From NCBI RefSeq assembly GCF_000026105.1, contig NC_008027.1:2248001-2312000 (forward strand): a DNA stretch of 64,000 bases, in the 5' to 3' direction. The notes under the pieces are model-generated. The model had not been told where the DNA came from and did not search any database. It saw nothing but the letters and a program-made list of their open reading frames with translations. A program made the translations under genes and the position numbers. Shown piece by piece: positions 1 through 21,120 of the stretch; position 1 is the first letter of the stretch, and each line of letters starts with the position of its first letter. Source of the DNA: Pseudomonas entomophila L48. GTDB lineage: Bacteria > Pseudomonadota > Gammaproteobacteria > Pseudomonadales > Pseudomonadaceae.

Positions 1-990
1 GGGGTAGCGATAGTGTTCGAAGGCCTCGAGCACTGTGCCGGCGACCTGTTCGAGCAGCGTGGCGAAGGTCATGTCGGGGCCGATCCGCGTGCGGATCGGC
101 ATGGGCACGGCATAGCAGCCCAGGTTGCCTTGGTCCTGGGGCGAGCGCCCGGCGATCGGGCAACCGAGTACCAGGTCGTCCTGCCCGCAGACACGGTGCA
201 GGTACAGGTTCAGCGCCGCCAGCAGAAACATGAATGGCGTGCTGTTGCGGCTGGCGCAGAAGCGGCTCAGGTCGCGCGCCAGCGCCCGTGGCAGCCAGGT
301 CTTGGCGGTGTTGCCGTTGTAGGTCTGGACCACCGGGCGCGGGCGGTCGGTGGGCAGTTCCAGGGGCGCGGGCAGGTCGGCGAACTGGGCCATCCAGTAA
401 CGGCGGTGAACCTCCAGCTCGCCGCTGTGCAGCGCTTCGTTGCTGCGCCTGGCGTAGTCGAGGAAACTGCCGCGCAGGGGCGGCAGTTGCACCTGCCGCC
501 CCTGGCAGGCGGCCGCGTAGAGCGTGGCGAACTCGCGGATCAGGTTCAGCGTGCTGGTCTCGTCCCAGATGATGTGGTGCACGGTGAACAGCAACTGGTA
601 CTCGTCGCCTGGGTAAGCCACCAGGTGCAGGCGATAGAGCACTTCGTTGGCGAAGTCGAACGGGGCCAGGGCGTATTCGCGGGCCAGCCGCTGCTGCTCG
701 GCCAGCACCTGCTCCGCGGCCAGCCCGGTGCGGTCGATGAACAACCGCGCCGGGTCGAGCACCTGGGGCTCGCCCAGGTACTGGCCGGGGCGGCCATCGG
801 CGTAGCCCAGGCGCAGGCGGAACACGTCGTGGCGGTCGAGCAGCTGTTGCCAGGCGGTGAGGAACGCGGCGCGGTCGACCCGGTCGAGGAAGAAGTGGTT
901 GAAGCTGACGTTGTACACCGCGCTTTCCGGCGCCAACTGGTAGGCGAACCACTCGGGGATCTGGCTTGGGGCCAGGTCTTGCAGGCTCAT
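1..990 (-). CDS. Non-ribosomal peptide synthetase, N-terminal condensation domain (runs off the left edge)
   Basis: Only the first 330 residues are in the window; the frame stays open to base 1. Reading from the ATG at 990, the protein begins MSLQDLAPSQIPEWFAYQL and matches an NRPS condensation domain. The core motif at about residue 138 reads HHIIWDE, so the catalytic second His and the Asp are present but the usual Gly is Glu. The start codon overlaps the stop of the upstream NRPS gene by four bases (ATGA), so the two are translationally coupled and this is the next protein of the assembly line. It should accept the peptidyl chain from the diamino-acid module upstream. Whether it goes on to an A-PCP module or a release domain cannot be seen. 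The condensation-domain call is firm; the role within the pathway is inferred. Confidence 0.9.
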   Translation of the reverse strand, partial: MSLQDLAPSQIPEWFAYQLAPESAVYNVSFNHFFLDRVDRAAFLTAWQQLLDRHDVFRLRLGYADGRPGQYLGEPQVLDPARLFIDRTGLAAEQVLAEQQRLAREYALAPFDFANEVLYRLHLVAYPGDEYQLLFTVHHIIWDETSTLNLIREFATLYAAACQGRQVQLPPLRGSFLDYARRSNEALHSGELEVHRRYWMAQFADLPAPLELPTDRPRPVVQTYNGNTAKTWLPRALARDLSRFCASRNSTPFMFLLAALNLYLHRVCGQDDLVLGCPIAGRSPQDQGNLGCYAVPMPIRTRIGPDMTFATLLEQVAGTVLEAFEHYRYP

Positions 991-3900
991 ACGGTCTCCT
1001 CCAGCGCCTGGGCGCAGTGTTCGCAGAGTTCGGCGATGCTTGGGTGGTTGAACAGGTGGGTCACTTGCAGCCCCTGGCCGAGCACTTCGCGGCAGCGGGT
1101 GGTCAGTTCCACCGCCAGCAGCGAATGGCCGCCGAGCAGGAAGAAGCTGTCGTCGATGCCCACCCGCTCGACGCTCAGCAGTTCGGCCCAGATTTCACTC
1201 AGGCGTCGTTCACGCGCGTCGCGCGGGGCGCGGTAGGGCAGCTCGCCAGCCTGGTCGAAACTGGCCAGTGCGGGCAGCGCGGCACGGTCGATCTTGCCGT
1301 TGGGCAGCAGGTCGAAGGCATCGAGCAGGCACACGGCGGCGGGCACCATGTAGTCCGGCAGGTGCTGGCGGCAGAACGCGCGCAGGCTCTGGGCGGAGGG
1401 CGCGGGGCGCTGGGGGGCGATGACATAGGCGACCAGTTGCTGCTGCCCGTTGCCGTCGGCGGCACCGACCACCAGGCTCTGCTCGACCGCCGGATGCTGG
1501 CGTAGCACGGCCTCGACCTCGCCGGCCTCGATGCGACAGCCCCGGACCTTGAGCTGGAAGTCGCAGCGGCCGAGCATGTGCAGGTTGCCTGCGGCATCCC
1601 AGCGCCCGAGGTCGCCGGTCTTGTACAAGCGGGCGCCAGGGTGGTTGTCGAAGGGGTCATCGATGAAGCGCTCGGCGGTGCGCGCGGGATCCTTATAGTA
1701 GCCTTGCCCGACGCACAGGCCGCCGATGTGGATCTCGCCGACCACGCCTGCAGGTACCCGCCCTAGGCTGGCGTCGAGCACATACAGGCGGGCATTGCCG
1801 ATCGGGCGCCCGATCGGCTGGTAGGGCTGGGTCGGCTCGGGGGCCGCGTGCAGGCACAGGTGGGTGACGTCGTCGGAGCACTCGCTGGGGCCGTAGGCAT
1901 TCATCAGCGCGGTGCCCGGGCAGTGCTCGAACCAGCGGCGGGCCAGGGCGGTGGCCAGCGGCTCGCCGTTGCTGATCATCCAGCGCAGCCGTGGCAGCGC
2001 GCGTGGCTGGCGCTGCAGTTCGTCGAGCAGCAGTTCCAGGTGCGAGGGCACGGTCTCGACCACGCTGACCTGGCAGGCTTCGAGCTGGTCGCACAGGGCG
2101 CGTGGTTCCCAGGCCTGCAGGCCAGTGAGCACGCGGGTGCGGGCGCCCGGGAGGAGCGCGACGAGGAACTGCCAGACCGCCACATCGAAGGTCTGCACGG
2201 CAATCTGAGCCACGCAGTCGTCACGCCCGAGGTTCAGGTCGTGGGCCTTGGCCTGCAGGTGATTGATCATCCCCAGGTGGCTGACCATGGCCGCCTTGGG
2301 CTCGCCGGTGGAGCCCGAGGTGAAGATCAGGTAGGCGGTGTCGTCAAGCCCGCTGGCGGGGGCCTCGGGCCAGTCCGTGGGTTGCCGGTCGAGGCTGGCG
2401 GGCGCAAGGCACAGCGCGGCGCAAGGCGCCTGCAGGTGCTCGAGCGCCGGCGCGCTGGCCAGGTCGCAGAGGATCAGCGCCGGCTCGCTGCGCTGCAACA
2501 TGCGCCCATTGCGCTGGCTGCCCTGGCCCGGGTCGAAGGGCACGAACGGCGCCCCCAGCTTGAACAGGGCGAGCATGGCCGCGAGGTAGTGGCAGCCACG
2601 GCTCATGAACAACGCCACCCGCTGGCCCTTGGTCACCCCCTGCTGGCGCACGGCGTGGGCGATACGGTTGGCCAGCTGGTCCAGTTCGAGATAGCTCAGG
2701 CGCTGGCCTTCGTGTTCCACGGCGATGGCCTCGGGCTGCACCGCCACCCAGTCGGCCAGGCAGGTCAGCAGGTGGCGGTCGGGCAGCGGGTCCTGGCTGG
2801 CGCTGCCCCAGCGGCGCAGGCAGGCTTTCTCGTCGTCGCCGAGCATTTCGAGCTCGGCCAGCCTGGCTTGGGGGGTGGCCATGGCCGACGCCAGCAGGGT
2901 GCGCAGGTGCTCGACCATGCGCACGGCAAAGGCATCGTCGAACAGCTCGGCGTTGTACTCGATCTGGCCGGTGATCGCGCCGGGGCTGTCTTCCAGCGCC
3001 AGGGTCAGGTCGAACTTGGTGTAGCCGCTGGCGCGCGGCAGCGGCTCGACGCTGGCGCTGCCCAGGGCGAAGCGCTGGGCCAGGGCCTGCTGCAGGACGA
3101 ACTCGACCTGGAACAGCGGCGCATGGCTGGTGCTGCGTGGGGGGTGCACGGCCTCCACCACGCGGTCGAACGGTACGTCCTGGTGGGCGTAGGCGGCCAG
3201 CGCCTGTTGCTTGACTTGCTGCAGGAAGGTGTCGAACGGCAGTTCGGCGCGCGGCTGGTTGCGCATCACCAGGGTGTTGACGAAGAACCCTACCAGCGCC
3301 TCGGTCTCCTGGGGGAAGCGGTTGGCGACAGGCGAGCCGATGAGGATGTCTTCGCTGGCGCTGTAGCGTGAGAGGAGAATGTTGAACACCGCCAGTAGCA
3401 GCATGTAGGGCGTCACCCCCTGGGCGCGGGCGAAGCGCCTCAGCTGCGTGCTCAGTTCGCCGGGCAGGGCCAGGCGCAGGGTCTTGCCGGCATAGCGCTG
3501 CTGTGCCGGGCGTGGGTGGTCGAGGGGCAGGGCGAGCAGCGCGGGCGCGTCGGCCAGTTGGGTGCGCCAGAACGCCAACTGGCTGTTCAGCCGTTGTTCG
3601 TCGAGCCACTGGCGTTGCCAGTGGGCGTAGTCGCCGTACTGCACCGCCAGCGCTGGCAGCGGTGACGGCAGGCCCTGGCTGAAGGCCTCGTAGAGCTGGC
3701 CGATCTCGCGAAGCATCACCCCCATCGACCAGCCGTCGCAGGCGATATGGTGCACGGTCAGCGACAACAGGTGGTGACGGCTGTCCAGGCGCAGCAGGTG
3801 GGTGCGCAGCAGGGGCGCCCGCGCCAGGTCGATCGGGGCGTCGGCCTCGCCGCGCAGCCAGTCCAGCGCCTGGCGCTCATCGGCCATTTCGAGGATCGGC

Positions 3901-4235
3901 AGTTCCAGGCGTGACAGGGCGTCGCAGCGCGCCTGGGGCTGGCCGTCGAGCGCTTCGACCACGGTGCGCAGCACGGCGTGCCGCTGGACATGCGCCTCAA
4001 TCGCCCGGCGCAAGGCTTCGACATCGATGGCACCGCGCACGCGTAGGGCGCAGGGCATGTTGTACAGGCCGCCGACCGGCTCCAGGTTCTGGTGCAGCCA
4101 GAGCCGCTGCTGGGCGGCCGACAGGCAGGGAGGGGCGTCGCTGGCCTGCAGCCCGCCGTTGGCTCGCCGGCGCCGTTGCAGCAGGTTCTGCTGCAGGTGG
4201 GCCGGGTGGTGTGGATCCTGTTCTGCTGGGGTCAT
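987..4235 (-). CDS. NRPS module C-A-PCP, predicted diamino acid (Dap) activating
   Basis: This single-module NRPS of about 1082 aa has a condensation domain (about residues 35-460, motif HHIACDGWS near 160) and an adenylation domain. Adenylation motifs are A3 YLIFTSGSTGEPK near 635, NAYGPSE, YKTGDLGRW, and LPNGKID with the A10 lysine. A PCP with LGGHSLLAV near 1034 follows. Hand alignment to GrsA gives pocket residues D-V-W-E-I-N-A-D-D. Glu278 and Asp330/331 make the pocket acidic, which suits a side-chain amine. Dap-forming SbnA and SbnB homologues lie immediately upstream, so I infer L-Dap as substrate; Dab or another basic residue is possible. I chose the ATG at 4235 because an AGGG lies eight bases upstream; a GTG at 4241 is also in frame. 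The stop overlaps the next NRPS start. There is no epimerisation or thioesterase domain. Confidence 0.93.
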   Translation of the reverse strand: MTPAEQDPHHPAHLQQNLLQRRRRANGGLQASDAPPCLSAAQQRLWLHQNLEPVGGLYNMPCALRVRGAIDVEALRRAIEAHVQRHAVLRTVVEALDGQPQARCDALSRLELPILEMADERQALDWLRGEADAPIDLARAPLLRTHLLRLDSRHHLLSLTVHHIACDGWSMGVMLREIGQLYEAFSQGLPSPLPALAVQYGDYAHWQRQWLDEQRLNSQLAFWRTQLADAPALLALPLDHPRPAQQRYAGKTLRLALPGELSTQLRRFARAQGVTPYMLLLAVFNILLSRYSASEDILIGSPVANRFPQETEALVGFFVNTLVMRNQPRAELPFDTFLQQVKQQALAAYAHQDVPFDRVVEAVHPPRSTSHAPLFQVEFVLQQALAQRFALGSASVEPLPRASGYTKFDLTLALEDSPGAITGQIEYNAELFDDAFAVRMVEHLRTLLASAMATPQARLAELEMLGDDEKACLRRWGSASQDPLPDRHLLTCLADWVAVQPEAIAVEHEGQRLSYLELDQLANRIAHAVRQQGVTKGQRVALFMSRGCHYLAAMLALFKLGAPFVPFDPGQGSQRNGRMLQRSEPALILCDLASAPALEHLQAPCAALCLAPASLDRQPTDWPEAPASGLDDTAYLIFTSGSTGEPKAAMVSHLGMINHLQAKAHDLNLGRDDCVAQIAVQTFDVAVWQFLVALLPGARTRVLTGLQAWEPRALCDQLEACQVSVVETVPSHLELLLDELQRQPRALPRLRWMISNGEPLATALARRWFEHCPGTALMNAYGPSECSDDVTHLCLHAAPEPTQPYQPIGRPIGNARLYVLDASLGRVPAGVVGEIHIGGLCVGQGYYKDPARTAERFIDDPFDNHPGARLYKTGDLGRWDAAGNLHMLGRCDFQLKVRGCRIEAGEVEAVLRQHPAVEQSLVVGAADGNGQQQLVAYVIAPQRPAPSAQSLRAFCRQHLPDYMVPAAVCLLDAFDLLPNGKIDRAALPALASFDQAGELPYRAPRDARERRLSEIWAELLSVERVGIDDSFFLLGGHSLLAVELTTRCREVLGQGLQVTHLFNHPSIAELCEHCAQALEETV

Positions 4236-4263
4236 CGTCACATCCCTTTGCTGGTGGTTGCGC

Positions 4264-5289
4264 TCATGCCTGGTCGGCCTGGTAGGGGCGGGGGAAGAAA
4301 TCCGTCACCCGCAGGTGCGGCTGTGCCGCGCAGTCGTGGTGGATGGCCCGGGCCACGGCGAGGTCGAGCACGCCCATGCCGAAGGGCGAGAAGATCCTGG
4401 GCCGGGTCGGGTCCGGGGTGACCTTGCCGCGCAGCGCCTCACTGATGTCGCCGGCGATGAAGCGCTGGTGGCCCGCCTGCAGCCAGGCCAGCTCCAGGGA
4501 GGTGGCGGCCTTGAGGCAGTGGCTGACGTTGTCGGCGAGATTCTGCGCCTGCAACACCACATTGGTGGCCAGGTCGCGCAGCGACAGGTGCAGCACGGTG
4601 GGGGCGTGGGCGAACCAGTGCGCCTGGTCGATGCCTGGGCGCACCGCCGAGGTGGCGAACAGCAGCAGGTCGCTATTGCGAATACAGGTTTCCAGCGGCG
4701 CCACGCGGGCCCGCAACCCCAGGTCCTGGCAGCGCTGGCGCAGGCGTTCGGCCCGCGCCGGGTCGAGGTCGCACAGGCTGACCTGCTCCAGCGCCCAGCC
4801 CGATTGGTGCAGCAGGCACAGGGTGCGCCAGGCGATCGGCCCGCAACCGACCACGCCGAAGTGGGCGCTGTGCCCGGGAGTGGGGTGCAGGCAACGGGCG
4901 CCGAGCACCGCCGAGGCCGCGGTGCGCGCGGCGCTGATCAGGCTGCCTTCGAGGCAGGCCAGGGGGTAGCCGGTTTGGCGGTCGTTGAGGATGATCAGCG
5001 CCGAGGCACGGTCCAGGCCGTGGCGGGTGTTCTCTGGAAAGCTGGCGATCCATTTCAGGCCGGCGACCGGCCGCGCGTCGTCGAGCACCGCGGGCAAGGC
5101 GATGATGCGGTTGCGGTCACTGTCGGCGAAGCGCAGGAAGTAGCTGTCAGGGTTGCCGGCGAGGCCCTCGGCGGCGTCCAGGTAGACCTGGGCGACCAGC
5201 TCCAGCAGGCGCCCAGGGTTGGCCTGCAGCCAGGCTTCGATGGGCGCTGCGCCGAGAATCGACAGCGCGGGGGGGTGATGGATGTCCAT
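4264..5289 (-). CDS. sbnB: SbnB-type N-(2-amino-2-carboxyethyl)-L-glutamate dehydrogenase (ornithine cyclodeaminase family)
   Basis: This 341-aa member of the ornithine cyclodeaminase/mu-crystallin family resembles SbnB of staphyloferrin B synthesis. SbnB oxidatively cleaves N-(2-amino-2-carboxyethyl)-L-glutamate with NAD+ to give L-2,3-diaminopropionate and 2-oxoglutarate. A Rossmann segment is visible around HFGVVGCGPIAWRTL, followed by a stretch typical of the family (SLCDLDPARAERLRQRC). The start MDIHHPPALSILG follows an AGGAG nine bases upstream; an open frame extends further but overlaps the preceding gene. It lies 17 bases after the sbnA-like gene and 28 bases before a C-A-PCP NRPS, so it is most simply the second half of a dedicated Dap supply. 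Family placement is firm. The SbnB rather than cyclodeaminase assignment rests largely on the pairing with SbnA. Confidence 0.9.
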   Translation of the reverse strand: MDIHHPPALSILGAAPIEAWLQANPGRLLELVAQVYLDAAEGLAGNPDSYFLRFADSDRNRIIALPAVLDDARPVAGLKWIASFPENTRHGLDRASALIILNDRQTGYPLACLEGSLISAARTAASAVLGARCLHPTPGHSAHFGVVGCGPIAWRTLCLLHQSGWALEQVSLCDLDPARAERLRQRCQDLGLRARVAPLETCIRNSDLLLFATSAVRPGIDQAHWFAHAPTVLHLSLRDLATNVVLQAQNLADNVSHCLKAATSLELAWLQAGHQRFIAGDISEALRGKVTPDPTRPRIFSPFGMGVLDLAVARAIHHDCAAQPHLRVTDFFPRPYQADQA

Positions 5290-5306
5290 GGTGTTCTCCT
5301 GGCGGC

Positions 5307-6287
5307 TCAGGCGCATGATTCGGCCGCGGCAACGGGGTGGGCGGTGCGCAGTTGGGGGAAATGGCGTTGCACCCACTCGGGGTTGTAGAGGGTGTCGACG
5401 TAGCGGTCGCCGAGGTCGGGCGCGATGGCCACCACGCAGGCGTTCGGGGCGATGTGCCGGGCATGGCGGCGCACACCGGCCAGCACGGTGCCGGAGGAGC
5501 CACCCAGCAGGATTCCGCGTCGGGCGAGTTTCTGGCACATCGCCACGGCTTCCTCTTCGGGCACCATCAGCAGTTGGTCGTGGCAGCAGTGGCGGCGGAT
5601 CTCCGGCGGCTGGCTGGTGCCCAGCCCTGGAATATGCCGTGGCCCGGATGGGTGGCCGAAGGTCACCGAACCGACGCTGTCGACCGCTACTACCTGGGTG
5701 TGTGGCGAGTGTTCGCGCAGGTAGCGCGACACCCCGGCCAGGGTGCCTGTGGTGCCGGCGCCGACGAACACCAGGTCGGGGTGGGGGAACTGGCGCAGGA
5801 TCGCCGGGCCGGTGCTGAGCATGTGGGCCTCGACGTTGTTGATGTTGCCGTACTGGTTGGTCCAGACCAGGTGCGGGTCCTCCGCGAGCAAGTGTTCGAT
5901 CAAGGCGATGCGGCTGCCCAGGTAACCGCCGTTGCGGTCACGCTGATCGACGATGACCAGACGCGCGCCGTAGGCGCGGATCAGCTTGGCGGTCTGCGGC
6001 GAGATGTTCGGGTCGCTGATGCAGGTGAACGGATAACCCTTGCTGGCACAGACCATCGCCAGGGCCAGGCCGAGGTTGCCCGAGGAGCTTTCCACGAGGG
6101 CCTTGCCGGGCCCCAGGCGGCCTTCGAGCTCCAGGCGTTCGACCATGCGCAGGGCCGGCTTGACCTTGATCGAGCCGCTGAGCGAGAACCCTTCGAGTTT
6201 GACGAACACCGGGGCGTGGGGCAGGACCTCGCGCAGTTCGAGGAACACGTCGTCGAACACCAGGTCGGCGGGAGAGGAAATCACCAT
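5307..6287 (-). CDS. sbnA: SbnA-type N-(2-amino-2-carboxyethyl)-L-glutamate synthase (PLP-dependent)
   Basis: This 326-aa fold-type II PLP enzyme belongs to the cysteine synthase family. In SbnA, O-phospho-L-serine and L-glutamate are joined to give the substrate of SbnB. Visible features are the PLP lysine segment FSLSGSIKVK (Lys near residue 41), the substrate-loop-like ESSSGNLGLALA and the phosphate-binding glycine run GAGTTGTLAGV. The ATG at 6287 follows a strong AAGGAGG. A longer open frame upstream overlaps the PKS gene and is not needed. It is 20 bases after the PKS and 17 bases before sbnB. Together the pair converts phosphoserine plus glutamate to Dap inside an NRPS operon. Cysteine synthase activity is the alternative from sequence alone, but the context argues against it. 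Confidence 0.91.
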   Translation of the reverse strand: MVISSPADLVFDDVFLELREVLPHAPVFVKLEGFSLSGSIKVKPALRMVERLELEGRLGPGKALVESSSGNLGLALAMVCASKGYPFTCISDPNISPQTAKLIRAYGARLVIVDQRDRNGGYLGSRIALIEHLLAEDPHLVWTNQYGNINNVEAHMLSTGPAILRQFPHPDLVFVGAGTTGTLAGVSRYLREHSPHTQVVAVDSVGSVTFGHPSGPRHIPGLGTSQPPEIRRHCCHDQLLMVPEEEAVAMCQKLARRGILLGGSSGTVLAGVRRHARHIAPNACVVAIAPDLGDRYVDTLYNPEWVQRHFPQLRTAHPVAAAESCA

Positions 6288-6307: not shown

Positions 6308-8860
6308 TCAGTGGGAGGTGTCGGGCACGGCGGCCTCGCTGCGCAGCAGCAGGCTGGCCGTGGCCTCCACGGTGGGGTGGTCGAACAGGTCTTCCAGGCT
6401 CAGTTCGATACCGAAACGCTGGTGCAGGCGTGCGTTGAGCTGGGTGGCCAGCAGCGAGTGGCCACCCAGGTCGAAGAAGTCCTCGGTGACGCCGACCTGC
6501 TCGATGCCCAGCAGCTCCGACCACAGCCCGGCGATCTCCCGCTCCAGCTCATTGCGTGGGGGTACCTGCGCGCTGCTGGCGCTATCCATGGCGTGCGCCG
6601 GGGTGTCCACGGCCCCCGGGCTCGGCGGTTCGATCCAGTGGCGGCTGCGTTCGAACGGGTAGCCCGGCAGCGCCACGCGCAGGCCACGGCCGTCGTGCAC
6701 GGCGAGCAGGTCGAGGTTGACGCCCCGCATCCACAACTGGCCGGCGAGGTCGAGCAGTTGCTCATGCGCTGCTGGCTGGTCGCTGTGCAGGCAGGCGTCG
6801 GTGTCGGTGCCCGGTGGCCATGGCGCGGCCGCGGCGTCCACCAGGCAGTGCCCGGGCGCCTTGGCCAGGCGCGCCAGACTGGTGTTGAAGACCGTCTGGC
6901 TGCGTGCCTGCTGCCAATACTGCCCATCGAGCGAGCGTGCGTGCCTGACCGGCTGGCCGTCCAGGCTCGATAGCCACGCGAACCCAGGCTCGCCCTGGCG
7001 TTCGGGCAAGGCACCGAGCTGGCCGTCGAGCAGCGCGAGGGCTTCGCCCGGCGAGAGTCGGCCGGCCCGGCAGGCCATGGCCAGTTCGCCCAGGGCGTCG
7101 CACAGCACCAGGTGGGGACGCAAACCCCAGGCATGCCACAACTCGGCCAGGGCGTACAGGGCGGCGAAGCGTTGCTGCGTCGGGCCCAGGTTGCTACCGA
7201 TGTGGCCGAGGGCCTCGGCCAGCGGGCGGCAGTGCGGGGCCAGTGGCGCCACGCGCTCGACCAGGTGCGGGTCGTCGCGCAGCACCAGCACCAGGTCGGC
7301 CGGTGGCGGCGCGGCGAGACGCGCGGGGCGGCCCTCGCGCAGCCGTGCCAGCAGTTCGGCGTGGCTGCGCACCACCAGCGCCAGGCGATGCACGTGCTGG
7401 GTACGCCCGCCGTTGGCGGTGTGGCAGATATCCATCAGCGGCGCCTGCTGCAGCTGTTCCAGCCAGTCCGCCAGTTGCGCTTGCTTGCGTGCCACGGCGG
7501 GCGCCGACTTGGCCGACAGCGTCAGCAGCCAGGGGCCGGCGGGCACCTGGCTGGCGGCGCGTGGTGGCGCCGCCTCCAGCAGCACATGGGCGTTGGTGCC
7601 GCCGATGCCGAACGAACTGACCGCCGCCCGCGCCACGTGGTCGGCCTGTGGCCATGGGCGCAGCTGGGCGTTGACCTGCAGTCCGTCGAGGCTGGCCTTG
7701 TCGGTCAGGCGGGTGAAGTGCAGCGACGCGGGGATCTGCCGTTGTTGCAGGCACAGCACGGCCTTGATCAGGCCGGCCACGCCCGCGGCGGAGTTGAGAT
7801 GACCGAGGTTGCTCTTCAGCGAGCCGAGGTAGCAGGGCGCGTCGGCGGCGCGGGGTTGCCCGCCGTACACCTCGTTGAGCGCGGTCAGCTCGATGGGGTC
7901 GCCCAAGGCCGTGCCAGTGCCATGGCATTCGATGTAGCCGACCTCGTCCGCCTGCAGGCCGGCCATGGCCAGGGCCCGGCGCAGCACCGCGACCTGGCCA
8001 TCGACGCTGGGGGCGGTGTAGCCGACCTTGCGCGCGCCGTCGTTGTTGATCGCCGAGCCGCGAATCACCGCTTCGATGCGGTCGTTGTCGCGCAGGGCGT
8101 CCTCGTAGCGTTTGAGCAGCACCAGGGCTACTCCCTGGCCGGCGACGGTGCCGCGGGCCTGCTGGTCGAAGGCCCGGCAGTGGCCGTCCGGCGACAGGAT
8201 GCTGTCGGGGCGGTGCAGGTAGCCTTGCTGTTCGGCGGCCTGCACCGAGGCGCCGCCGGCCAGGGCCAGGTCGCACTCGTGCAGCAACAGGCTGCGGCAG
8301 GCCTGGTGGATCGCCACCAGCGAGGTGGAGCAGGCGGTGGCGACATCCATCGCCGGGCCGCGCAGGTTGAGCTTGTAGGCGATCTGCGTGGCATTGCCGC
8401 TGTTGGCGTAAAGCAGTTGCACCGGGTCGGTGGCGGCCATGGCCTGGGCATTGGGCAGCAGGTTGTGGACGAAGTAGCTGCTGGCATCGGCACCGACGAA
8501 CACCCCGGTTTCCTGGCCATGGCGCTCCGGCGCATAGCCGGCGCGTTCGAAGGCGTGGTAGGCGGTCTCGAGCAGCAGGCGTTGCTGCGGGTCCATCAGG
8601 CTGGCGTCGCGCGGCGAGAAGCCGAAGAAACCGGCATCGAACAGCTGGCGGCCCGGCAGGGCAACGCCGGCCTTGACGTAGTGCGGGTCGGCCAGGCGTT
8701 CGGCGGGCACGCCCTGGGCCAGCAACTGTTCGTCGCTGTATGACTCGATGGCTTCCTGGCCTTCGGCCAGGGCTTGCCAGAACTGCTCTGGGCTGTCGGC
8801 GAAGGGGAGGCGGCAGGCCATGCCGATGATGGCGATGGCGTTGTCCATGGGCGGATTCAT
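6308..8860 (-). CDS. Polyketide synthase module: KS, degenerate AT, carrier protein
   Basis: This 850-aa type I PKS has a complete ketosynthase (about residues 8-435): active Cys in TACSTSLVAIH near 176, first His in ECHGTGTALGDP, second His in NLGHLNSAAG. About 300 residues that correspond to the KS-AT linker and an acyltransferase follow, but the nucleophile motif GHSLGE is replaced by CDALGE near residue 582 and no GPHPVL-type His motif is found. The post-AT linker GYPFERSRHW is kept. The carrier protein motif is DLGGHSLLATQL, more PCP-like than ACP-like. No KR, DH or ER is present, so a beta-keto unit would be left. The ATG at 8860 has AGGA upstream and lies 14 bases after the large NRPS stop. 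Chain extension after the third NRPS module is inferred from gene order; malonyl loading would have to come in trans. Confidence 0.92.
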   Translation of the reverse strand: MNPPMDNAIAIIGMACRLPFADSPEQFWQALAEGQEAIESYSDEQLLAQGVPAERLADPHYVKAGVALPGRQLFDAGFFGFSPRDASLMDPQQRLLLETAYHAFERAGYAPERHGQETGVFVGADASSYFVHNLLPNAQAMAATDPVQLLYANSGNATQIAYKLNLRGPAMDVATACSTSLVAIHQACRSLLLHECDLALAGGASVQAAEQQGYLHRPDSILSPDGHCRAFDQQARGTVAGQGVALVLLKRYEDALRDNDRIEAVIRGSAINNDGARKVGYTAPSVDGQVAVLRRALAMAGLQADEVGYIECHGTGTALGDPIELTALNEVYGGQPRAADAPCYLGSLKSNLGHLNSAAGVAGLIKAVLCLQQRQIPASLHFTRLTDKASLDGLQVNAQLRPWPQADHVARAAVSSFGIGGTNAHVLLEAAPPRAASQVPAGPWLLTLSAKSAPAVARKQAQLADWLEQLQQAPLMDICHTANGGRTQHVHRLALVVRSHAELLARLREGRPARLAAPPPADLVLVLRDDPHLVERVAPLAPHCRPLAEALGHIGSNLGPTQQRFAALYALAELWHAWGLRPHLVLCDALGELAMACRAGRLSPGEALALLDGQLGALPERQGEPGFAWLSSLDGQPVRHARSLDGQYWQQARSQTVFNTSLARLAKAPGHCLVDAAAAPWPPGTDTDACLHSDQPAAHEQLLDLAGQLWMRGVNLDLLAVHDGRGLRVALPGYPFERSRHWIEPPSPGAVDTPAHAMDSASSAQVPPRNELEREIAGLWSELLGIEQVGVTEDFFDLGGHSLLATQLNARLHQRFGIELSLEDLFDHPTVEATASLLLRSEAAVPDTSH

Positions 8861-14800: not shown

Positions 14801-17800
14801 TCGGCCAGCAGGTGCGGCAGTTGCAGCAACAGGATGTGTTCCTGCGCTGCCAGGCGCAGCAGGTGCAGGCGATACAACGGCGGACGGTCGAGTGGCAGCG
14901 ATGCCCGCAGGGCCCTGCGCAGCAACCCAGGCAGTTGGTCGCGAGCGACATCGAGTGGGGTGAGGGGCTGCTGATCCTGGGTGTCCAGGACCTGCCACAC
15001 ACCTTCATCATCAGCCTCGACACGCATGTGCAACTGGGGGTGGCGTGCCGCTACCTGCCGCCAGGCCGCTTGCAACGCCGGGATATCCAGCGGCCCGAGC
15101 AGGCGCTGGACCACCGCGAGGTTGAAACGTTGCGGGCCGCCTTCGTCGTAGCGGTCGCTGAAGTACAGCTGGCGCTGCGCCGGCGACAGCGCAAAGCGCG
15201 TGGTCAGGCTGGGCGGGATGGGCGTCGGCGTCAGCTGCCGGGAGGCATCCAGGCAACCCGCGAGCTCGCGCAGGCTGGGATGGCGCAGCAGGTCGGCCAG
15301 GCCCAGGCGGATACCGAACTGCTGGTCGATGGCCACCAGCAACTGGGCGGCCATCAGCGAATGGCCACCCAGTTCGAAGAACGATTGCTCGGCACCGACC
15401 TGCGGCACTTCAAGCAAGTCCTGCCAGAGCCTGGCCAGCCGCAGCTGGGTCGCGCCCTGCGGCGCGGCCTGTGGCGCCAGGTCGCTGCGCGCGGGGCGGC
15501 TCAGTGCCCGGCGATCGACCTTGCCGTTGAGCGAGTGCGGCAGCCGGGCCAGGCATTCGAAACGCTGCGGCACCATGTACGCCGGCAGCCGTTCGAGCAG
15601 GGCCGCGCGCCAGGCGTCGGGGTCGCCCAGGCCGTCATCCTGGGGCACCACGTGGGCGCTCAGCTCGGTCTGGCCATCGCTGTCCCAGGCCAGCACCACG
15701 GCCTGTCGGATGCCGGGCAGTTGATGCAGCGCGTGCTCGATCTCGCCCAGTTCGATGCGGTGGCCACGCACCTTGACCTGGAAGTCCAGGCGGCCGTGGT
15801 AGACCAGCTCGCCCTGGTCGTTCCAGCACACTCGGTCGCCGGTGCGGTACAGGCGGGTCGGCCGGCCTTCCAGGCCCAGCGGATCGAGCAGCGGGAAGCG
15901 TTCGGCGGTCAGCGCGTCGCGCTGGTGATAACCCTCGGCCAGGCCGGCGCCGCCGATGCACAGCTCGCCACTGGCGCCCCAGGGCACTGGCTGCCCCTGG
16001 GGGTCGAGCACGTAGCAGCGGGTGGCGCCGATCGGCCGACCGATCACCGCGTGCTGGCTGGCATCGGTCAGGCGCTGGCGGGTCGACCAGATGGTGGTTT
16101 CGGTGGGCCCATAGACCTGCACCACCTGCCCGGCGCAGCCCAGCAGGTAGCTGGCCAGGTTGCTCGACAGGGCCTCGCCCCCGCACAACAGGCGAACGCC
16201 GTCGCGTTCGGCCGGGTGCCAGCCGGCCAGTGCCAGCAGCGACCAGAAGGATGGCGTGCCTTGCAGCAGTGTCGGACGCAGCGCGTCCAGGGCCTGGGCC
16301 AGGGCCGTCGGGTCGCGCACCTGGTCGTCGATCAGTTGCAGGCAGGCGCCGCTGGTGAGCGCGCCGTACAGCTCCAGGCCGAAGATGTCGAAACCGATGG
16401 CGGTGGCGCCCAGCACCCGGTCCCGCGCGCTGATTTCAAGGTCGGCCACGAAGTCGGCGATCAGGTTGCCCAGCGCGGCGTGGGCGATGCGCACGCCCTT
16501 CGGCTTGCCGGTCGAGCCGGAGGTGTAGATGAGGTAGGCCAGGCTGTCCGGCGCTGGCGCCTGCAGGGACACGGGCCGGGGCACGGTGCGTGCCGACGGT
16601 GGCGAAGGGCACAACTGGCGCACGTCGATGGGCAATGCTTGGTCGGTGATCAACAGGTCCATGCCGCTGTCGGCGACGATATCCTTGAGCCGTTCCAGCG
16701 GCATGTCCGGGTCAATCGGCACATAGGCCGCGCCATTGCCCAGCACCGCGAGCATGGCGATGACGGCCTGGTCCTTGCGCCGCAGGTGGACGCCGATGCA
16801 GCCGCCCCGGGCCTGTTCGCCGAGCCGATCGGCCAGCGCCGAGGCCGCGCCGGCCAGTTGCCGGTAGTCGAGGGTGCCCTGGCGGTACTGCAGGGCCGGC
16901 GCATCGGGACGCCGTTGCACCTGCTCGAGGAAGCGCTGCATCACCCCTTCCTGGCCCACTGCGTGGCACGCGGGTTCGCCAGCGAAGGCTTGCAGGCGCT
17001 CGGCCATGCCCGTCGGCAGCAGCCAGTGGCGCTGCATGGGCTGTTCGGGGGCGGCCAGCGCCTGCTCGAGCGTGTGCTGCAAGCTTTCACCCAGGCGTTG
17101 GATGAACGCCTCGCTGAATGATTCGAGCGGGTAGTCCAGGCGCAGGCGGATACGCTGGGTGTCGAGCTGGTAGGCGACCACCAGGTCGCCTACCACCTGG
17201 CGCCGGCCGAGGGGCTGAGGCGCAAAGACCGCCTGGCCCAGGATCAGTTGGTCAGCGCCGAAGTAGGCCTCGACCAGGCTGACATTGAAGGGCCGTTCCA
17301 CGCTCTCGCCCTGTTCGCGTAGCTGGCGCATCACGTCGGTGAGCGTAAAACGCGGGTGCTGGCGGGCAGCCTTGCGCTCCTCGCGCAGCCTGGCGACCAG
17401 CGCTTGCAGGCTGCCCTCGCTGGCGAGCTCGACTGGCAATGGGTAGTTGTTGATTCGGCAGCCCAGCACCCGACGGGCACCAGCGGGCCGTTCGTCCACC
17501 GGGTGGTTGAGCACCAGCGCCTGGGCACCGCTGTAGCCAGCCAGCACGTGGGCCAGCGCGGCGGCGAGGACCACGAAAGGCGTGGCCCCCTGGCTGCGGG
17601 CATAGCGGCGCAACGAGCGGGCCAGTGGTTCGGGCAGGTCGAAGTAATGCGAGGCGCCCAGCCCCGAGTCGCCCGCCTGGGCGCTGTGCTGGCGCGGCAG
17701 GTCGACGCTCAGGGGCAGCCCGGCCAGGCGCTGGCACCAGTGCGCGACGTCGGCGCTGGCGGTGCTGTCTTGCACCGACGCACGGGTGTCAGGCTCCGGT

Positions 17801-18282
17801 TGGGGTAGTGGGCGACCCTGCTGATGGCACGCGTAGCTTTCGGCCAGGACCTGGACGAACTGCAGGGCCGAGGTGGCGTCGGCGATAATGTGGTGGAAGT
17901 TCAGCACCAGTCGCTGCTCGTCGCCCTGGCGCAGCAGGTCGAAGCGAAACAGCGGGCCGGTGCGCAGGTCGAACGGATGCGCCAGTACCTGCTCGGTTGC
18001 CAGCTCCAGTTCGTGTTCCGGGGGCAGGTCGCACACCGTGAGTACTTGGGCCTGGGCTGGCCCGGCCAACTGCCAGAGGGCTTCGCCACGTTGTTCGAAG
18101 CGGCCCAGGCAGGCCGGGTAGTAGTGGTTGACGAAGTGCGCCAGGGCGCTCTGCAACGCGGGCAGATCGAGCGCCCCGGCCACTCGATAGACCAATGGCG
18201 TGTTGTACAGGGTGCTGCCTGGCGCCAGTTGCCACTCCAGGAAGAAACGGCGTTGGTAAGGGTTGGCGAGGGTCTCAGCCAT
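8875..18282 (-). CDS. Three-module non-ribosomal peptide synthetase (C-A-PCP)x3
   Basis: This 3135-aa protein holds three modules, with approximate residues from motif positions. Module 1 is C1 (5-430, motif HHIIADATS near 129), A1 (LIYTSGSTGKPKG near 581) and PCP1 (ELGGHSLMAA near 969). Module 2 is C2 (PHLLADGW near 1157, first His replaced by Pro but the catalytic second His present), A2 (VIHTSGSTGTPKG near 1624) and PCP2 (SGGDSMRIL near 2013). Module 3 is C3 (HHAILDGWS near 2217), A3 (VMYTSGSTGQPKG near 2676) and PCP3 (ERGGDSLLAM near 3060). Pocket residues by hand alignment are D-I-L-Q-L-G-V-I-W (glycine-like), D-F-W-N-I-G-M-V-H (the classic threonine code) and D-A-F-F-M-G-V-T-F (aliphatic, Ile/Val-like). 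The ATG has AAGGAG upstream and overlaps the P450 stop by eight bases. There is no E or TE domain. A C domain at the N-terminus suggests an acylated start or an upstream donor. Confidence 0.96.
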   Translation of the reverse strand: MAETLANPYQRRFFLEWQLAPGSTLYNTPLVYRVAGALDLPALQSALAHFVNHYYPACLGRFEQRGEALWQLAGPAQAQVLTVCDLPPEHELELATEQVLAHPFDLRTGPLFRFDLLRQGDEQRLVLNFHHIIADATSALQFVQVLAESYACHQQGRPLPQPEPDTRASVQDSTASADVAHWCQRLAGLPLSVDLPRQHSAQAGDSGLGASHYFDLPEPLARSLRRYARSQGATPFVVLAAALAHVLAGYSGAQALVLNHPVDERPAGARRVLGCRINNYPLPVELASEGSLQALVARLREERKAARQHPRFTLTDVMRQLREQGESVERPFNVSLVEAYFGADQLILGQAVFAPQPLGRRQVVGDLVVAYQLDTQRIRLRLDYPLESFSEAFIQRLGESLQHTLEQALAAPEQPMQRHWLLPTGMAERLQAFAGEPACHAVGQEGVMQRFLEQVQRRPDAPALQYRQGTLDYRQLAGAASALADRLGEQARGGCIGVHLRRKDQAVIAMLAVLGNGAAYVPIDPDMPLERLKDIVADSGMDLLITDQALPIDVRQLCPSPPSARTVPRPVSLQAPAPDSLAYLIYTSGSTGKPKGVRIAHAALGNLIADFVADLEISARDRVLGATAIGFDIFGLELYGALTSGACLQLIDDQVRDPTALAQALDALRPTLLQGTPSFWSLLALAGWHPAERDGVRLLCGGEALSSNLASYLLGCAGQVVQVYGPTETTIWSTRQRLTDASQHAVIGRPIGATRCYVLDPQGQPVPWGASGELCIGGAGLAEGYHQRDALTAERFPLLDPLGLEGRPTRLYRTGDRVCWNDQGELVYHGRLDFQVKVRGHRIELGEIEHALHQLPGIRQAVVLAWDSDGQTELSAHVVPQDDGLGDPDAWRAALLERLPAYMVPQRFECLARLPHSLNGKVDRRALSRPARSDLAPQAAPQGATQLRLARLWQDLLEVPQVGAEQSFFELGGHSLMAAQLLVAIDQQFGIRLGLADLLRHPSLRELAGCLDASRQLTPTPIPPSLTTRFALSPAQRQLYFSDRYDEGGPQRFNLAVVQRLLGPLDIPALQAAWRQVAARHPQLHMRVEADDEGVWQVLDTQDQQPLTPLDVARDQLPGLLRRALRASLPLDRPPLYRLHLLRLAAQEHILLLQLPHLLADGWSLDLLRRQLGQAYNAERRGQPLGEAPACQRYADAIAQQQGWLDSPAGHQAVTFWRELLVGYEGLDLPRDPGLEHVDGDQGAHYHFDLPANLVSRLEQHCADHKTSLFCALYAAYAVLLGRYCNTRDLVISVPSANRGAGNDQVFGLFTCTLPLRVRLDEQAGLASLLGQVAALSRQAQACQGVPLEAMTEASGDGRVHPLMQAVFALQNANEQHELALDDVHASFVEVDDGIARYPLFLSLRRHDGGLRATLEYDRTRFAAPRMARLGEHYRYLLEQLLDADVPLRDLQLLRPRQRQALLRPARRPAAAASASLVDAFKRVAARLPGRIAIEDGQKRLNYAELERASDRLARRLRLAHQQRHGQALPADTLVGLCATRGIDLLVGMLGILKAGAAYVPLDPDYPHARLAAVRQDCALDWVVAQGEALARSGLQDLQAILLDDEAPAADDAQPLPRVAPAQLAYVIHTSGSTGTPKGALLSHHNVMRLFDASRPLFDFDEHDTWCLFHSYAFDFSVWEIWGALLHGARLVIVPQATSRDPEALRELIVSQGVTVLNQTPGAFVRLVTEDLRHAAPMPLRQVIFGGEALQVATLAPWFDKYGDRVRLNNMYGITETTVHVTHTPVTRDDLARATQQRIGRPLPDLSVLVLDAHGQLCPPGVTGELHVAGPGLARGYLNQPQLTARVFVERHGLRLYRSGDLGRWLEDGQLEYQGRNDHQVKVRGFRIELGDIQAALLRLTEVDDAVVRHDAHRGVLQAWFSASRPLALGDVQAHLREHLPAYMQPQQLRQVERLPLTANGKVDVDALRALEPLEQARADNWRAPSGERERLLAGIWRTVLELEQPGADDDFFASGGDSMRILDVQRLAREAGFNFSPRQLFRHPTLAGLATQLAPWQATPGAERRLPFALLDAERAELARQMGDQDGYPLTALQEGMLFHSQLEQAATYLDIMSCRVQGRFEEAALREQLQALMQAHAVLRTLFAASPQGHWQRVRGHLPLPLVVDDLRALEPAAQERWLEAFHRDELHRPLNGELAPLWRVTAHVLEGGWYLTLTCHHAILDGWSVASFFTTLLENLDRMLDGESPFQPVSTLDFVDYVARERQWRAQAELGAFWQATCAELEPTLLAEAERHPGGSLRRLEVTLEPALDEALRHTARTLGVSLDLVLLAAHLQALGRQTGRRRVACGMPSHGRLVEDEGQRMLGLFLNTTPCVIALDADATPRQRVRRLHDYRAGLGDAAQYPLREVLREHGGALFDSLFNFVHFHAFDRLQHLHHLQVSPGYCHEQTNFTLVNQTGIDPHSGALRIELVHRAEQWSDASARRFALHLHQALCELAEVAPSQAQQAALHALYPPAAWQGLNPAADTCGGLPGRFAAIVARHGQRPALREGDRTVSYAELDRWSDNLALRLLAQHGARLDRQRVGVFTRPGMATIATLLAVLKVGASYLPLDPEYPTARLRQLLDDARPALLAGDVMALEKHAGLSLPALVIDDAPLPQPPLRPLVPVAADALAYVMYTSGSTGQPKGVMVEQAGILRLVVEADYVHIGPGDVLGQLATLSFDAATFEIWGALLNGATLALAPVGCALDSPALAGYLHEQAVSILFMTTRLFDRHVAAGHAAMFRGLRYLMIGGEVMDPLTVDQVLACAEGRPQHVYNVYGPTENTTFSTFQPLDRERLALGDIAIGRPIRGTSAHVLDELGRPTAIGQVGELYLGGQGLARGYLNDPGRSDVAFVTLDLADGQGPLRLYRTGDAARWQADGTLGYLGRIDRTIKVNGFRVNLGELENTARQCGDLEQCIAVNDHGLLLYFSGTITAQALRQALASRLPGYMLPARLIQVDTFELNRNGKIDTHRLPSARDLAVPARTFSDANEQRLHQIWSALLGHGDIDAEDNFFERGGDSLLAMQLQQHISQAFARELAVVEVFRHPTLRSMARFLDDTPREAAADQPPANDEQRRAAAFSARRARLTTL

Positions 18283-19684
18283 GATGGTGCTCCTTCAGGC
18301 GGATCCGCACCGGGCGGCTCATGGCCAGGGCGAAGTGGAAGTGATGTTCGAGGGGCTCATCGGTGGATTCCCAGTCGCCGGCGCGCACCATTTCGGCCAG
18401 CAGCACCTTGAGCGAGTAGCGCGAGAACATCTGGCCGGTGCAGTTGTTCGGCCCGCTGGAGTAGGCGAGGAACGGCTGGCGGTAGCGCTCCGGGGCTTCC
18501 TGGAAGCGCTCGGGGCGGAAGGCGTCGGCATCCTCGCCCCACAGCTCGGGCAGGCGCAGCACGTGGTAGATGTCGGCCACCAACTCGCTGCCCTGGCGGA
18601 CGAAATGGCCGTTGACCATCAGGTCGCGGCTCGCCGCGCGGAACAGGAAGGGCTGTGCCGGATGCAGGCGCAGCACTTCGTGGACGCAGGCGTGCAGCAG
18701 CGTGTCGTCGCGGCGGATGTAGGCGGCGTGGTCATCGCCCTTCGTCAGCAGCTCCTGGCGCAGGGCCTGGCGATAGCGGGGGTGACGGCCGAGCTCGTCG
18801 ACCAGGGCGAGGAACGACGGGAAAGGCGCCACGTAGCCGGCCAGCACCGCGCCATTGAGCCCGGTGGCGAACGCCTCGTCCTGCAGCGACTGGTAGTGCT
18901 GGTCGATGTAGGCATTGAGCCGGTGGGTGTAGTCGGTGCTGTTGAGCAAGCCCGGATCGTTGCCGATGCGCGCCACCAACTGGCGCTTGAGCTCGTCGAA
19001 GCGACGGTTGAAGTGCGCGGGCTTGTGGTAGGCGAAAGCCTGCCCGAGCAGGTCCACCTGCTCCTCGAGCATCTGCCCCACGCCTTCCACCGGCCCCTGA
19101 AGGTCCATGACCGAGCGCAGGTAGACCTCGGCGGTGAATTCGCTGAGTTCGGCGTTGACCAGCAAGGTCGGCGCGCCTTGCCACCAGCGACGCACCCGCT
19201 GCTCGCTGAGTTGGCGCATGGTCTGGATGAAACGTTCCGGGCCGCTGACCAGGTGGGCGATGATGTTGCGCTTCTGCTTGGCGTCCTGGCGCTCCTTGCT
19301 CAGGCGCATGCGCCCCAGCGCATCGGCGATGACCAGGAACTGGCGACCGTCGCCGACCAGCTCGCCCTGGCCCATGCGCGGGTGTTGCATCAGCCCGCGG
19401 ATCTCCTCGACGCCGATCAGCACGCTGTAGTCGCCGGCGAAGGTCGGCAGGCGCAGGTAGCGCCGCCAGCTGCCGTCGGCGTGCCTGGCCAGCTTGCCGA
19501 TGTAGTGGTAGGGGCGGGTGCGGTCGCGCAGCGCCCGCGAGTTGCGCCAGCGCCGTGGCAACAGCCAGGGGGCGGCCAGCACGCCGAGCAGGCGGTGCAG
19601 GCGGCTTTGCAGGGGGGTGGCGGCGACCATCGTGAAGGGGTGGCCGCCGTGGGTGTGCAGTGATCGATTGTCGAGCGCTTCCAT
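18275..19684 (-). CDS. Cytochrome P450 with atypical I-helix
   Basis: This 469-aa protein carries the P450 heme-ligand loop (YSSGPNNCTGQMF, Cys near residue 415) and the K-helix ExxR as HEVLRLHP, followed by a PERF-like segment (FRPERF). The I-helix, normally AGxET or AGxDT, reads LAGYVAPFPSFL, so the acid-alcohol pair used in O2 activation is absent. No signal or membrane anchor is evident, so it is probably cytosolic. It sits 35 bases after the amidase and overlaps the NRPS start by eight bases, so it should act on the peptide, on a carrier-bound amino acid or on a precursor. Which oxidation it performs cannot be read from sequence, and the missing residues leave open a non-classical reaction. 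Confidence 0.9.
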   Translation of the reverse strand: MEALDNRSLHTHGGHPFTMVAATPLQSRLHRLLGVLAAPWLLPRRWRNSRALRDRTRPYHYIGKLARHADGSWRRYLRLPTFAGDYSVLIGVEEIRGLMQHPRMGQGELVGDGRQFLVIADALGRMRLSKERQDAKQKRNIIAHLVSGPERFIQTMRQLSEQRVRRWWQGAPTLLVNAELSEFTAEVYLRSVMDLQGPVEGVGQMLEEQVDLLGQAFAYHKPAHFNRRFDELKRQLVARIGNDPGLLNSTDYTHRLNAYIDQHYQSLQDEAFATGLNGAVLAGYVAPFPSFLALVDELGRHPRYRQALRQELLTKGDDHAAYIRRDDTLLHACVHEVLRLHPAQPFLFRAASRDLMVNGHFVRQGSELVADIYHVLRLPELWGEDADAFRPERFQEAPERYRQPFLAYSSGPNNCTGQMFSRYSLKVLLAEMVRAGDWESTDEPLEHHFHFALAMSRPVRIRLKEHHHG

Positions 19685-19719
19685 GGCTTACCTGCGGATT
19701 CGTTGGGAGGGGAGGGCTG

Positions 19720-21120
19720 TCAGGCGTCGAGGGCCAGGCGCGGCTTGTGCCAGCCGGCCAGTTGCTCGAGGTGGCCGGCCACCTGCAGGGCGAGGTCTTC
19801 GCGCCAGGGCTTGGCGATGACCTGGATGCCGATCGGCAGGCCGTCGCGGGACTGGCCGATGGGCACCACCGCCACCGGCCAGTTGACCAGGCTGTAGCAG
19901 ATCGAATAACTGAAATCGCGTACCTGCGCGTAGGAGCAACCATGGGGCTTGGCGACCGTCGCGGCGACGGGGCAGAGGATCACGTCGTAATCCTCCATGA
20001 AGCGCAGCATCGCCTGGCGGCAGCGGTCCAGCTGCATCCAGATGCCGCGCAACTGGGTGACCGTGAGCTGGCTCTGGCGGGTCAGCGCGTGGTATTCGCG
20101 CAGCAAGGGCGAGATTTCGCGCAGGCCCAGTTGCTGGATCAGGTCGCTGAGCCACTGCCCCTGGTCGCCACCGAGCAGGATGCTGTCGGCCAGCAACTCC
20201 TCGATTTGCCCGAGGCAGTCGGGGCGGCGCTCGTCGAGGCAGGCGACTTCGCCGCGCAGGGCATCGGCGGCGTGGGCCACGGCCTGGCGGATATCGTCCT
20301 GTGGCGTGCTGATGCCGTCGTCGGCGTACCAGGCCACCCGCAGTTCGGACAGTGCCTGGGGGGACGCGGTGTGCCAGGGCACCGGCGGCACGTGGGGGTC
20401 GCGGCCGTCGGGGCCGGCCAGCAGCGGCGCGGCTAGGCGCAGGTCGGCAATGGTGCGGGCCATGGGGCCGAAGCTGATGAACGGGCTGAACATGCCCATG
20501 CAGTCCAGGGGGAAGTGACCTGTGAGGGGCACGCGCCCTTGGGTGAGCCGCAAGGTGCAGATGCCGCTGTTGTGCGCCGGTACCCTCAGGCTGCCACTGG
20601 CATCGGAACCGATGCCCAGCAGCGAACCTTGGGCGGCGATCAGCGCCGCCTCGCCGCCACTGCTGCCGCCGGGGCTGCGGGTCAGGTCATGGGGGTTGCG
20701 GGTCTGGCCGTAGAGCAGGTTGTCGGTCTCGTAGCCGATGCTCAGCTCGGGGGTGTTGGTCAGGCCCAGCAGCAGCGCGCCTTCGCCGCGCAGGCGGGCC
20801 ACCACGGTGGCGTCGGTTTCGCTGGCCTGGCCTGCGAGGCCGGCACAGCCCTTGTCGGGGCTGTAGCCCAGGGCGTGGCAGGTGTTCTTGACGCTGAAGG
20901 GGACGCCCAGCAAGCGTTTGTGTTGCAGGCGAGGCAGCTCGCGCTCGATCCAGGCCGCCTGTTCGTAGGCCATCTCCCGGTTGCTCTGCACTATGGCGTT
21001 GATGTGGGGGTTGACCGTGTCGATCTGCTGGAAATAGGCGTCCAGCACCTGCGCTGGGCGGATCGCGCCCCGCTTGACCGCGTCTGACAGGGTGCTGGCA
21101 TCGCAACCGAGTATGTCCAC
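19720..21120 (-). CDS. Amidase signature family enzyme (GatA-like)
   Basis: This amidase signature enzyme is 466 aa from the GTG at 21120. The Ser-cisSer-Lys triad is visible: Lys78 in GVPFSVKNT, the cis-Ser in SPGGSSGGEAA (153/154) and the nucleophile Ser177 in SDASGSLRVPA. These numbers match the GatA family closely (79/154/178), which supports this start; GGAGAG lies just upstream. An in-frame TTG at 21207 would add 29 residues without family resemblance. It is the first gene of the NRPS/PKS operon, 35 bases before the P450. GatCAB glutaminase function is unlikely here. A tailoring or deacylating amide hydrolysis, removal of a prodrug group or self-protection are plausible roles, all inferred from position. 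Confidence 0.88.
   Translation of the reverse strand: MDILGCDASTLSDAVKRGAIRPAQVLDAYFQQIDTVNPHINAIVQSNREMAYEQAAWIERELPRLQHKRLLGVPFSVKNTCHALGYSPDKGCAGLAGQASETDATVVARLRGEGALLLGLTNTPELSIGYETDNLLYGQTRNPHDLTRSPGGSSGGEAALIAAQGSLLGIGSDASGSLRVPAHNSGICTLRLTQGRVPLTGHFPLDCMGMFSPFISFGPMARTIADLRLAAPLLAGPDGRDPHVPPVPWHTASPQALSELRVAWYADDGISTPQDDIRQAVAHAADALRGEVACLDERRPDCLGQIEELLADSILLGGDQGQWLSDLIQQLGLREISPLLREYHALTRQSQLTVTQLRGIWMQLDRCRQAMLRFMEDYDVILCPVAATVAKPHGCSYAQVRDFSYSICYSLVNWPVAVVPIGQSRDGLPIGIQVIAKPWREDLALQVAGHLEQLAGWHKPRLALDA

Follow-up and report, generated by a model that had tools for sequence, protein, structure and literature searches.

A rare peptide-polyketide cluster of Pseudomonas entomophila L48 with a predicted local diaminopropionate supply and a predicted GNAT-like insert in its last adenylation domain

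Introduction

What does a line of eight closely spaced genes in the insect pathogen Pseudomonas entomophila L48 make, where would its predicted diaminopropionate come from, and how is the finished chain let go? The genes lie on the minus strand at the left end of the stretch analyzed here (the window: 64,000 nucleotides, positions 2,248,001-2,312,000 of a single-contig genome of 5,888,780 bases). They run from position 21120 down to -2960 and cross the left window edge; zero and negative positions continue the window numbering leftwards, -2960 being genome position 2,245,040. We favor, at a probability of roughly 70%, a reading in which these genes are the core of a 34-kb nonribosomal peptide synthetase (NRPS)-polyketide synthase (PKS) cluster that occurs in five lineages, supplies its own diaminopropionate (Dap) and would build a chain of the order Gly-Thr-(Ile/Val)-ketide-Dap-X, likely a ribosome-targeting antibiotic. 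Papers marked "in part" are cited from a portion of their text.

Results

Eight genes in conserved order

A preliminary description of the locus had listed an amidase, a P450, a three-module NRPS, a PKS, SbnA, SbnB, a one-module NRPS and a further NRPS, separated by 35 bases or less or overlapping. Pfam and curated models uphold the amidase, P450, SbnA, SbnB and NRPS assignments, and the spacings between neighbors are 35, -8, 14, 20, 17, 28 and -4 bases. Read in order, the Pfam domains are amidase; P450; three condensation-adenylation-thiolation (C-A-T) modules; ketosynthase (KS) and acyl carrier protein (ACP); PALP (SbnA); OCD_Mu_crystall (SbnB); C-A-T; and C-A-T. The features, including an acyltransferase (AT) relic and a small gene discussed below, are as follows (TE, thioesterase).

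19720..21120, minus strand: amidase-signature family protein, 466 aa (PF01425, 282.1 bits)
18275..19684, minus strand: cytochrome P450, 469 aa (PF00067, 99.2 bits)
8875..18282, minus strand: NRPS, 3135 aa, (C-A-T)x3 (Pfam)
6308..8860, minus strand: PKS, 850 aa, KS - degenerate AT - ACP (Pfam and alignment)
7034..7159, minus strand: AT relic within the PKS (PF00698 positions 70-111 of 319)
6350..6538, minus strand: ACP of the PKS, residues 775-837 (PF00550, 67.2 bits)
5307..6287, minus strand: SbnA family enzyme (TIGR03945, 409.8 bits)
4264..5289, minus strand: SbnB family enzyme (TIGR03944, 391.2 bits)
987..4235, minus strand: NRPS, C-A-T, 1082 aa (Pfam)
990 to -2960, minus strand: last NRPS, 1316 aa, C-A-(predicted GNAT-like insert)-T, without TE (Pfam)
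-10858 to -10430 (L010:9142-9570), minus strand: 142-aa gene in the part of the cluster left of the window

The cluster extends 13 kb left of the window. Most of the C domain of the last NRPS is inside (1..990) and its insert outside. Beyond it, on the same strand, come a 512-aa protein, a response regulator, a histidine kinase, a MATE transporter and an O-methyltransferase, then the 142-aa gene, a type II thioesterase and, ending at -13066, an ABC-F protein.

The eight genes are collinear in four other loci, with 50-92% protein identity over best segments, and because the same gene order recurs there we regard the set as more than a chance assembly. For the remaining core genes of the larger cluster, identity in those loci is 37-89%. 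When 19 proteins were compared with four loci by tblastn, the core genes through ABC-F kept their order in Pseudomonas G200, P. fontis and Trinickia dabaoshanensis; a plasmid of Burkholderia glumae has that order by annotation and tblastn (ABC-F 61%, amidase 65%, P450 61%). A separate comparison located the 142-aa gene in all five clusters. The cluster is thereby present in five lineages, its own and the B. glumae plasmid included. The fourth tblastn locus, from Burkholderia sp. L27, has only the thioesterase and a portion of the last NRPS; it is an apparent decayed copy and is kept out of the five. The regulator and kinase genes occur in three of the five clusters, with no tblastn match in the Trinickia or B. 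glumae stretch. At the borders, three open reading frames beyond the amidase on the right were unmatched in all four tblastn loci, and an Asp/Arg-hydroxylase gene left of the cluster was matched only in G200.

The cluster is rare. A search with the insert region of the last NRPS retrieved 18 proteins among 4,426 candidates from a collection of 5.8 billion, and a P. entomophila relative of the last NRPS is 94% identical. Two of 398 Pseudomonas genomes searched carry the insert, and 2 of 369 genomes of the class match it, this genome being counted both times; the second match in the class is a 290-residue frame, probably free-standing. Across 84,980 species genomes, a pattern scan narrowed 43 matched stretches to 3 loci, a result that rests on two short patterns and may omit the window's own kin.

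Diaminopropionate supply

SbnA passes the curated cut-off of its model (349.95 bits) and is the sole protein to do so among 10 TIGR03945 matches in the genome. SbnB passes as well (cut-off 326.9), and its gene follows sbnA after 17 bases. In Staphylococcus aureus, SbnA makes a serine-glutamate conjugate from O-phosphoserine and glutamate, and SbnB converts it to Dap and 2-oxoglutarate (PMC12751119, in part). The proposal that two enzymes of the locus supply Dap thus stands, and a serine-kinase-like gene outside the window adds to it. The 142-aa protein encoded there matches the SerK model at 30.3 of 380 bits (E 2.2e-7), and among solved structures it matches SerK (E 0.005) and 1vk1 (E 6.5e-4). 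An MDGNHR motif is present in all five clusters and KTTRH in four, Trinickia having KSTRH. The protein is probably a compact SerK-like serine kinase, the third Dap gene, and is predicted to be a local source of O-phosphoserine.

Adenylation codes

We read the codes at the GrsA positions and with the code-to-monomer meanings that we take to be standard. On that footing the proposed order of Gly, Thr, an Ile/Val-like residue and a diamino acid holds, the codes being identical or similar in the five clusters. The first, DILQLGVIW (Gly), is the same in all five; the second, DFWNIGMVH (Thr), in four, with L for M in P. fontis; the third is varied (DAFFMGVTF in two clusters, DAFFLGCTF in one, DALFVGGTF in two) and Ile/Val-like; the fourth, DVWEINADD, is identical in all five and diamino-acid-like. 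The predicted substrate of the fourth A domain (NRPS 987..4235) is Dap. The fifth code, DALQIGHVD, is found in 20 of 23 rows (the five clusters and 18 database proteins, some from the same species), with single changes in P0013, P0014 and P0016. The most distant of the insert-bearing NRPSs, P0018 (1946 aa), shares this fifth code and is also listed with a GHMP-kinase domain (PF00288).

A polyketide synthase without a working acyltransferase

The PKS had been described as KS-only. It does have a KS, whose active residues Cys/His/His are kept in all five clusters, and it also has an ACP and the relic of an AT. The relic spans 42 of 319 Pfam positions at 20.5 bits (cut-off 32.7), and its GHSxG motif reads C-D-A-L-G. 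In an alignment of the five clusters with 12 KS proteins chosen from 120 listed (Trinickia entering twice, as locus and as protein), Asp replaces the GHS His in 16 of 17 PKS rows; the 17th, P0036, could not be aligned there. On these letters the PKS is AT-less, of the trans-AT type, a KS-ACP protein with a ruined AT. Pfam gave no ketoreductase (KR), dehydratase (DH), enoylreductase (ER) or TE domain, and a detoxin/rimosamide-like KS of the PipC type with KR and TE was not found, since this PKS has neither. Elsewhere in the genome, AT matches fall in two proteins, one FabD-like and the other of KS-AT type. In vitro, the P. entomophila FabD loads the ACP of the AT-less PipC (PMC12828459, in part), and by that precedent FabD is the most likely trans-acting AT here.

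Resistance, export and product class

ABC-F, MATE and O-methyltransferase genes are present in all five clusters. The best model for the ABC-F protein is "ribosomal protection-like ABC-F", at 332.7 of 380 bits, against 229.9 for Uup and 200.3 for EttA; the B. glumae protein reaches 338.4 of 380. From the presence of ABC-F in 5/5 clusters we predict a ribosome-targeting product, likely an antibiotic.

The Dap genes allow another view, in which the product is a metallophore that uses Dap from SbnA and SbnB as staphyloferrin B does and serves metal uptake rather than antibiosis. SbnA and SbnB do take their names from the staphyloferrin B pathway (PMC12751119, in part). We consider this very improbable, given the constant company of ABC-F, MATE and O-methyltransferase, and the 16 cluster and neighbor proteins to which the scan was confined included no TonB receptor and no hydroxamate or catecholate enzyme. 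Two known product types were also set aside. A malonomycin-type tetramate does not fit, because a module follows Dap and Dieckmann release at Dap would have no place. A monobactam of the sulfazecin type (SulM) does not fit either, with no thioesterase after the Dap module.

Accessory and neighboring genes

For the amidase a GTG start is preferred, with an in-frame TTG at 21207. The Lys and two Ser motifs, which we take to be those of the family, are kept in four aligned clusters and in B. glumae. The P450 has an intact heme Cys motif. Its I-helix reads AGY(V/I)AP in all five clusters, without the Thr of the usual AGxxT form, and marks an unusual P450.

The conserved 512-aa protein (L012:4326-5864) had no Pfam or NCBIfam match, and Foldseek returned 0 matches at E <= 0.001 from a poor model (pLDDT 60.1, the last 107 residues below 50). 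It is 55-84% identical in the other four clusters, and a C-terminal HxD...H...R pattern (424, 426, 480, 489), invariant in the alignment, suggests a putative 2-oxoglutarate/Fe(II) oxygenase. It showed no relation (E 0.52) to a 511-aa protein beside a free-standing GNAT in Sinorhizobium medicae.

The B. glumae plasmid, NZ_CP033655.1 (L031/L035), which carries the entire cluster, is typed conjugative; its cluster neighbors are an acyl-homoserine-lactone synthase gene beside the amidase, an autoinducer-binding gene and several insertion sequences. Within the stretch examined, the Burkholderia sp. L27 locus (L015:8387-12951) encodes only A-(insert)-T, lacking a C domain, along with a type II thioesterase and a phosphopantetheinyl transferase.

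Discussion

The insert in the last adenylation domain

The last gene had been listed simply as another NRPS. Its C-A-T order stands, but the A domain carries an insert and no thioesterase follows. Nothing in three other A domains of the cluster corresponds to about 260 residues within 895-1182, and the A core and C-terminal motifs are kept around them, which makes this an interrupted adenylation domain. The insert comes after the segment that matches positions 2-39 of AMP-binding_C and before the LPxYM motif, a site we take to be a8-a9. Nested A-domain inserts usually lie at a8-a9 (PMC8949500, in part). In a 36-row tree all inserts fall on one side of a branch (97/89), with long-branch warnings for P0017, P0018 and P0139; this fits a single capture. 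Outside the insert family the relatives include 15 proteins of 194-266 aa.

What the insert does can be approached from its fold, predicted to be that of the GNAT-like decarboxylases SxtA, CurA and GphF, which lead the fold matches and are among the top six rows in a second list; searches of solved structures by sequence returned no GNAT-like decarboxylase. The fold, together with a dyad His kept in 18 of 19 inserts, would suit a working malonyl decarboxylase like CurA or GphF, converting last-carrier malonyl to acetyl and thereby setting an acetyl group or starter. The last A domain, however, keeps the Asp that in such domains binds the amino group, so an amino acid rather than malonate is to be expected on its carrier. 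The dyad Ser/Thr position, which was assigned by motif and spacing because the families could not be aligned with hhalign, is moreover Gly, Ala or Val in all 19 inserts, and none of the 17 standalone relatives has Ser/Thr there, so that the insert probably lacks the catalytic Ser/Thr of these enzymes. In CurA, T355V drastically reduces decarboxylation (PMC3701320, in part), and we find a decarboxylase here improbable.

An inert structural relic, a pseudo-GNAT-like domain, would account for the Val at the Thr position of RPTxK in 18 of 19 inserts, where all 17 standalone relatives have Thr, Asn or Ser, and for P0014, the one insert with Asn for the dyad His, which comes from the broken-down-looking Burkholderia sp. 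L27 copy. Against a relic speak the 38-96% identity among inserts and the 29 columns, His among them, that show no variation across this insert and 13 standalone relatives (the short P0150 and P0153 were left out of this alignment and of the insert tree). We hold a relic to be doubtful. A further suggestion, which we also think improbable, is that the last module is a novel NRPS terminator, in which a GNAT-like domain acquired a single time from free-standing proteins would take the keto-peptide off its own carrier and hand it to an amine without a thioesterase; the product would then carry Dap and inhibit the large ribosomal subunit.

Kin of the insert also occur on plasmids, with matches in 35 plasmid records besides three of B. 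glumae. Six of these plasmid records were examined, one of them unannotated. In two, both from rhizobia, a free-standing relative is encoded no more than 2.3 kb from a giant NRPS gene: S. medicae WSM419 pSMED03 (L044:6402-7744) and Rhizobium jaguaris (L049:16424-19891), in both of which it comes after that gene. It is adjoined in S. medicae by a SerK-like gene with 37% identity to the B. glumae copy. The gene tables of these stretches, which are incomplete, do not list sbnA or sbnB near the rhizobial relatives, and those of the other three annotated plasmid stretches, likewise incomplete, do not list an NRPS gene. Near other free-standing relatives there is a phosphopantetheinyl transferase in R. 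leguminosarum and, at the edge of the stretch, an MbtH-family gene in Streptomyces clavuligerus.

Relation to orphan cluster 8

The preliminary description matched the gene set to no named Pseudomonas metabolite. The locus fits a reported cluster. Cluster 8 of P. entomophila L48 (PSEEN2139-2144, 2146-2156) is an orphan under Pvf control, one of seven unknown biosynthetic gene clusters raised by Pvf, with most of its genes raised at least 3-fold and a single homologous cluster, in B. gladioli BSR3 (PMC10194917, in part). Its NRPSs, one PKS, ornithine-cyclodeaminase-like gene, O-methyltransferase, efflux pump and uncharacterized gene agree in kind with this locus, which is very likely cluster 8; genes were mapped to PSEEN numbers by gene order. 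PSEEN2146, uncharacterized and raised 9.5-fold, is probably the gene of the 512-aa protein. The parts of PMC10194917 covered here hold no domain anatomy. Newly added are the extent of the cluster, its five lineages, the ABC-F and SerK-like genes, the loss of the AT, the A-domain insert and the missing thioesterase. The portion of PMC12828459 seen does not list this cluster among the strain's known products, and a product of the cluster was absent among the matches listed in open-access literature searches.

A proposed assembly route

From domains and gene order we infer the following steps. The SerK-like protein would phosphorylate serine, SbnA would join O-phosphoserine to glutamate, and SbnB would release Dap. 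The three-module NRPS would make Gly-Thr-Ile/Val, and the KS would add one unreduced C2 unit, with malonyl brought by a trans-acting AT, most likely FabD. The gamma-amino-beta-keto unit proposed earlier beside Dap agrees with the gene order and with a PKS lacking KR, DH and ER, and stays a prediction. The next two modules would add Dap and then a further residue, X. The GNAT-like domain may act on the carrier-bound chain of its own module, most likely by acyl transfer. As there is no terminal thioesterase, release would fall to the type II thioesterase or to the insert. MATE would export the product and ABC-F would protect the producer's ribosome.

Several points weigh against this reading. 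The ABC-F and SerK-like proteins score under the curated cut-offs of their models, the latter also against SbnI (14.6 of 350 bits, E 0.016). To our knowledge the diamino-acid code does not tell Dap from diaminobutyrate. The fifth code, presumably nearest to Gln codes, matches no monomer that we can read from the codes as we take them. A C-domain tree of 20 rows, in which nine C domains taken from three further NRPS regions of this genome served for comparison, gave no decision on whether the first C domain is a starter domain. Our release step is a guess for an NRPS that lacks a terminal thioesterase by Pfam, and the insert, whose activity is a prediction, has apparently lost half of the decarboxylase dyad. 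Order mapping makes PSEEN2139 a thioesterase where the published account has an NRPS, and the ABC-F gene seemingly lies outside the published cluster 8 (PMC10194917, in part). The chemistry as a whole, product and enzyme activities included, is predicted from sequence.

Even so, an orphan cluster under the virulence regulator Pvf of an insect pathogen now has a testable outline, a Dap keto-peptide with a predicted ribosomal target. Its A-domain insert is of a kind absent from the lists found, with one apparent origin and free-standing kin near giant NRPS genes in two rhizobia, and what GNAT-like folds do in peptide assembly lines becomes directly testable.

Comparison with known systems

In staphyloferrin B, Dap feeds an NRPS-independent siderophore synthetase, whereas here it would go to an NRPS. 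Both pathways have SbnA and SbnB, and this cluster also has a SerK/SbnI-like gene; compared with SbnI, the kinase-like protein is short (142 aa against 254 model positions) and weak in score. The pseudotetraivprolide (pip) cluster of the same species also has an AT-less PKS module, but it sits elsewhere (PSEEN_RS12600-12635), its PipB and PipC carry KR and TE domains, and neither "Dap" nor "diaminopropionic" occurs in the main text of PMC12828459 (otherwise cited in part).

Unlike the GNAT-like decarboxylases of CurA, GphF and SxtA, or malonyl-CoA decarboxylase, the domain described here lies within an NRPS A domain. In that respect it resembles TioS, TioN and IndC (PMC8949500, in part) and ColG (PMC10127204, in part), in which an extra domain is likewise nested in an A domain. 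A GNAT-like insert of this sort was absent among the matches listed in the open-access searches, and the nested activities given in the part of PMC8949500 available are methyltransferase, monooxygenase, oxidase and reductase, none of them GNAT-like.
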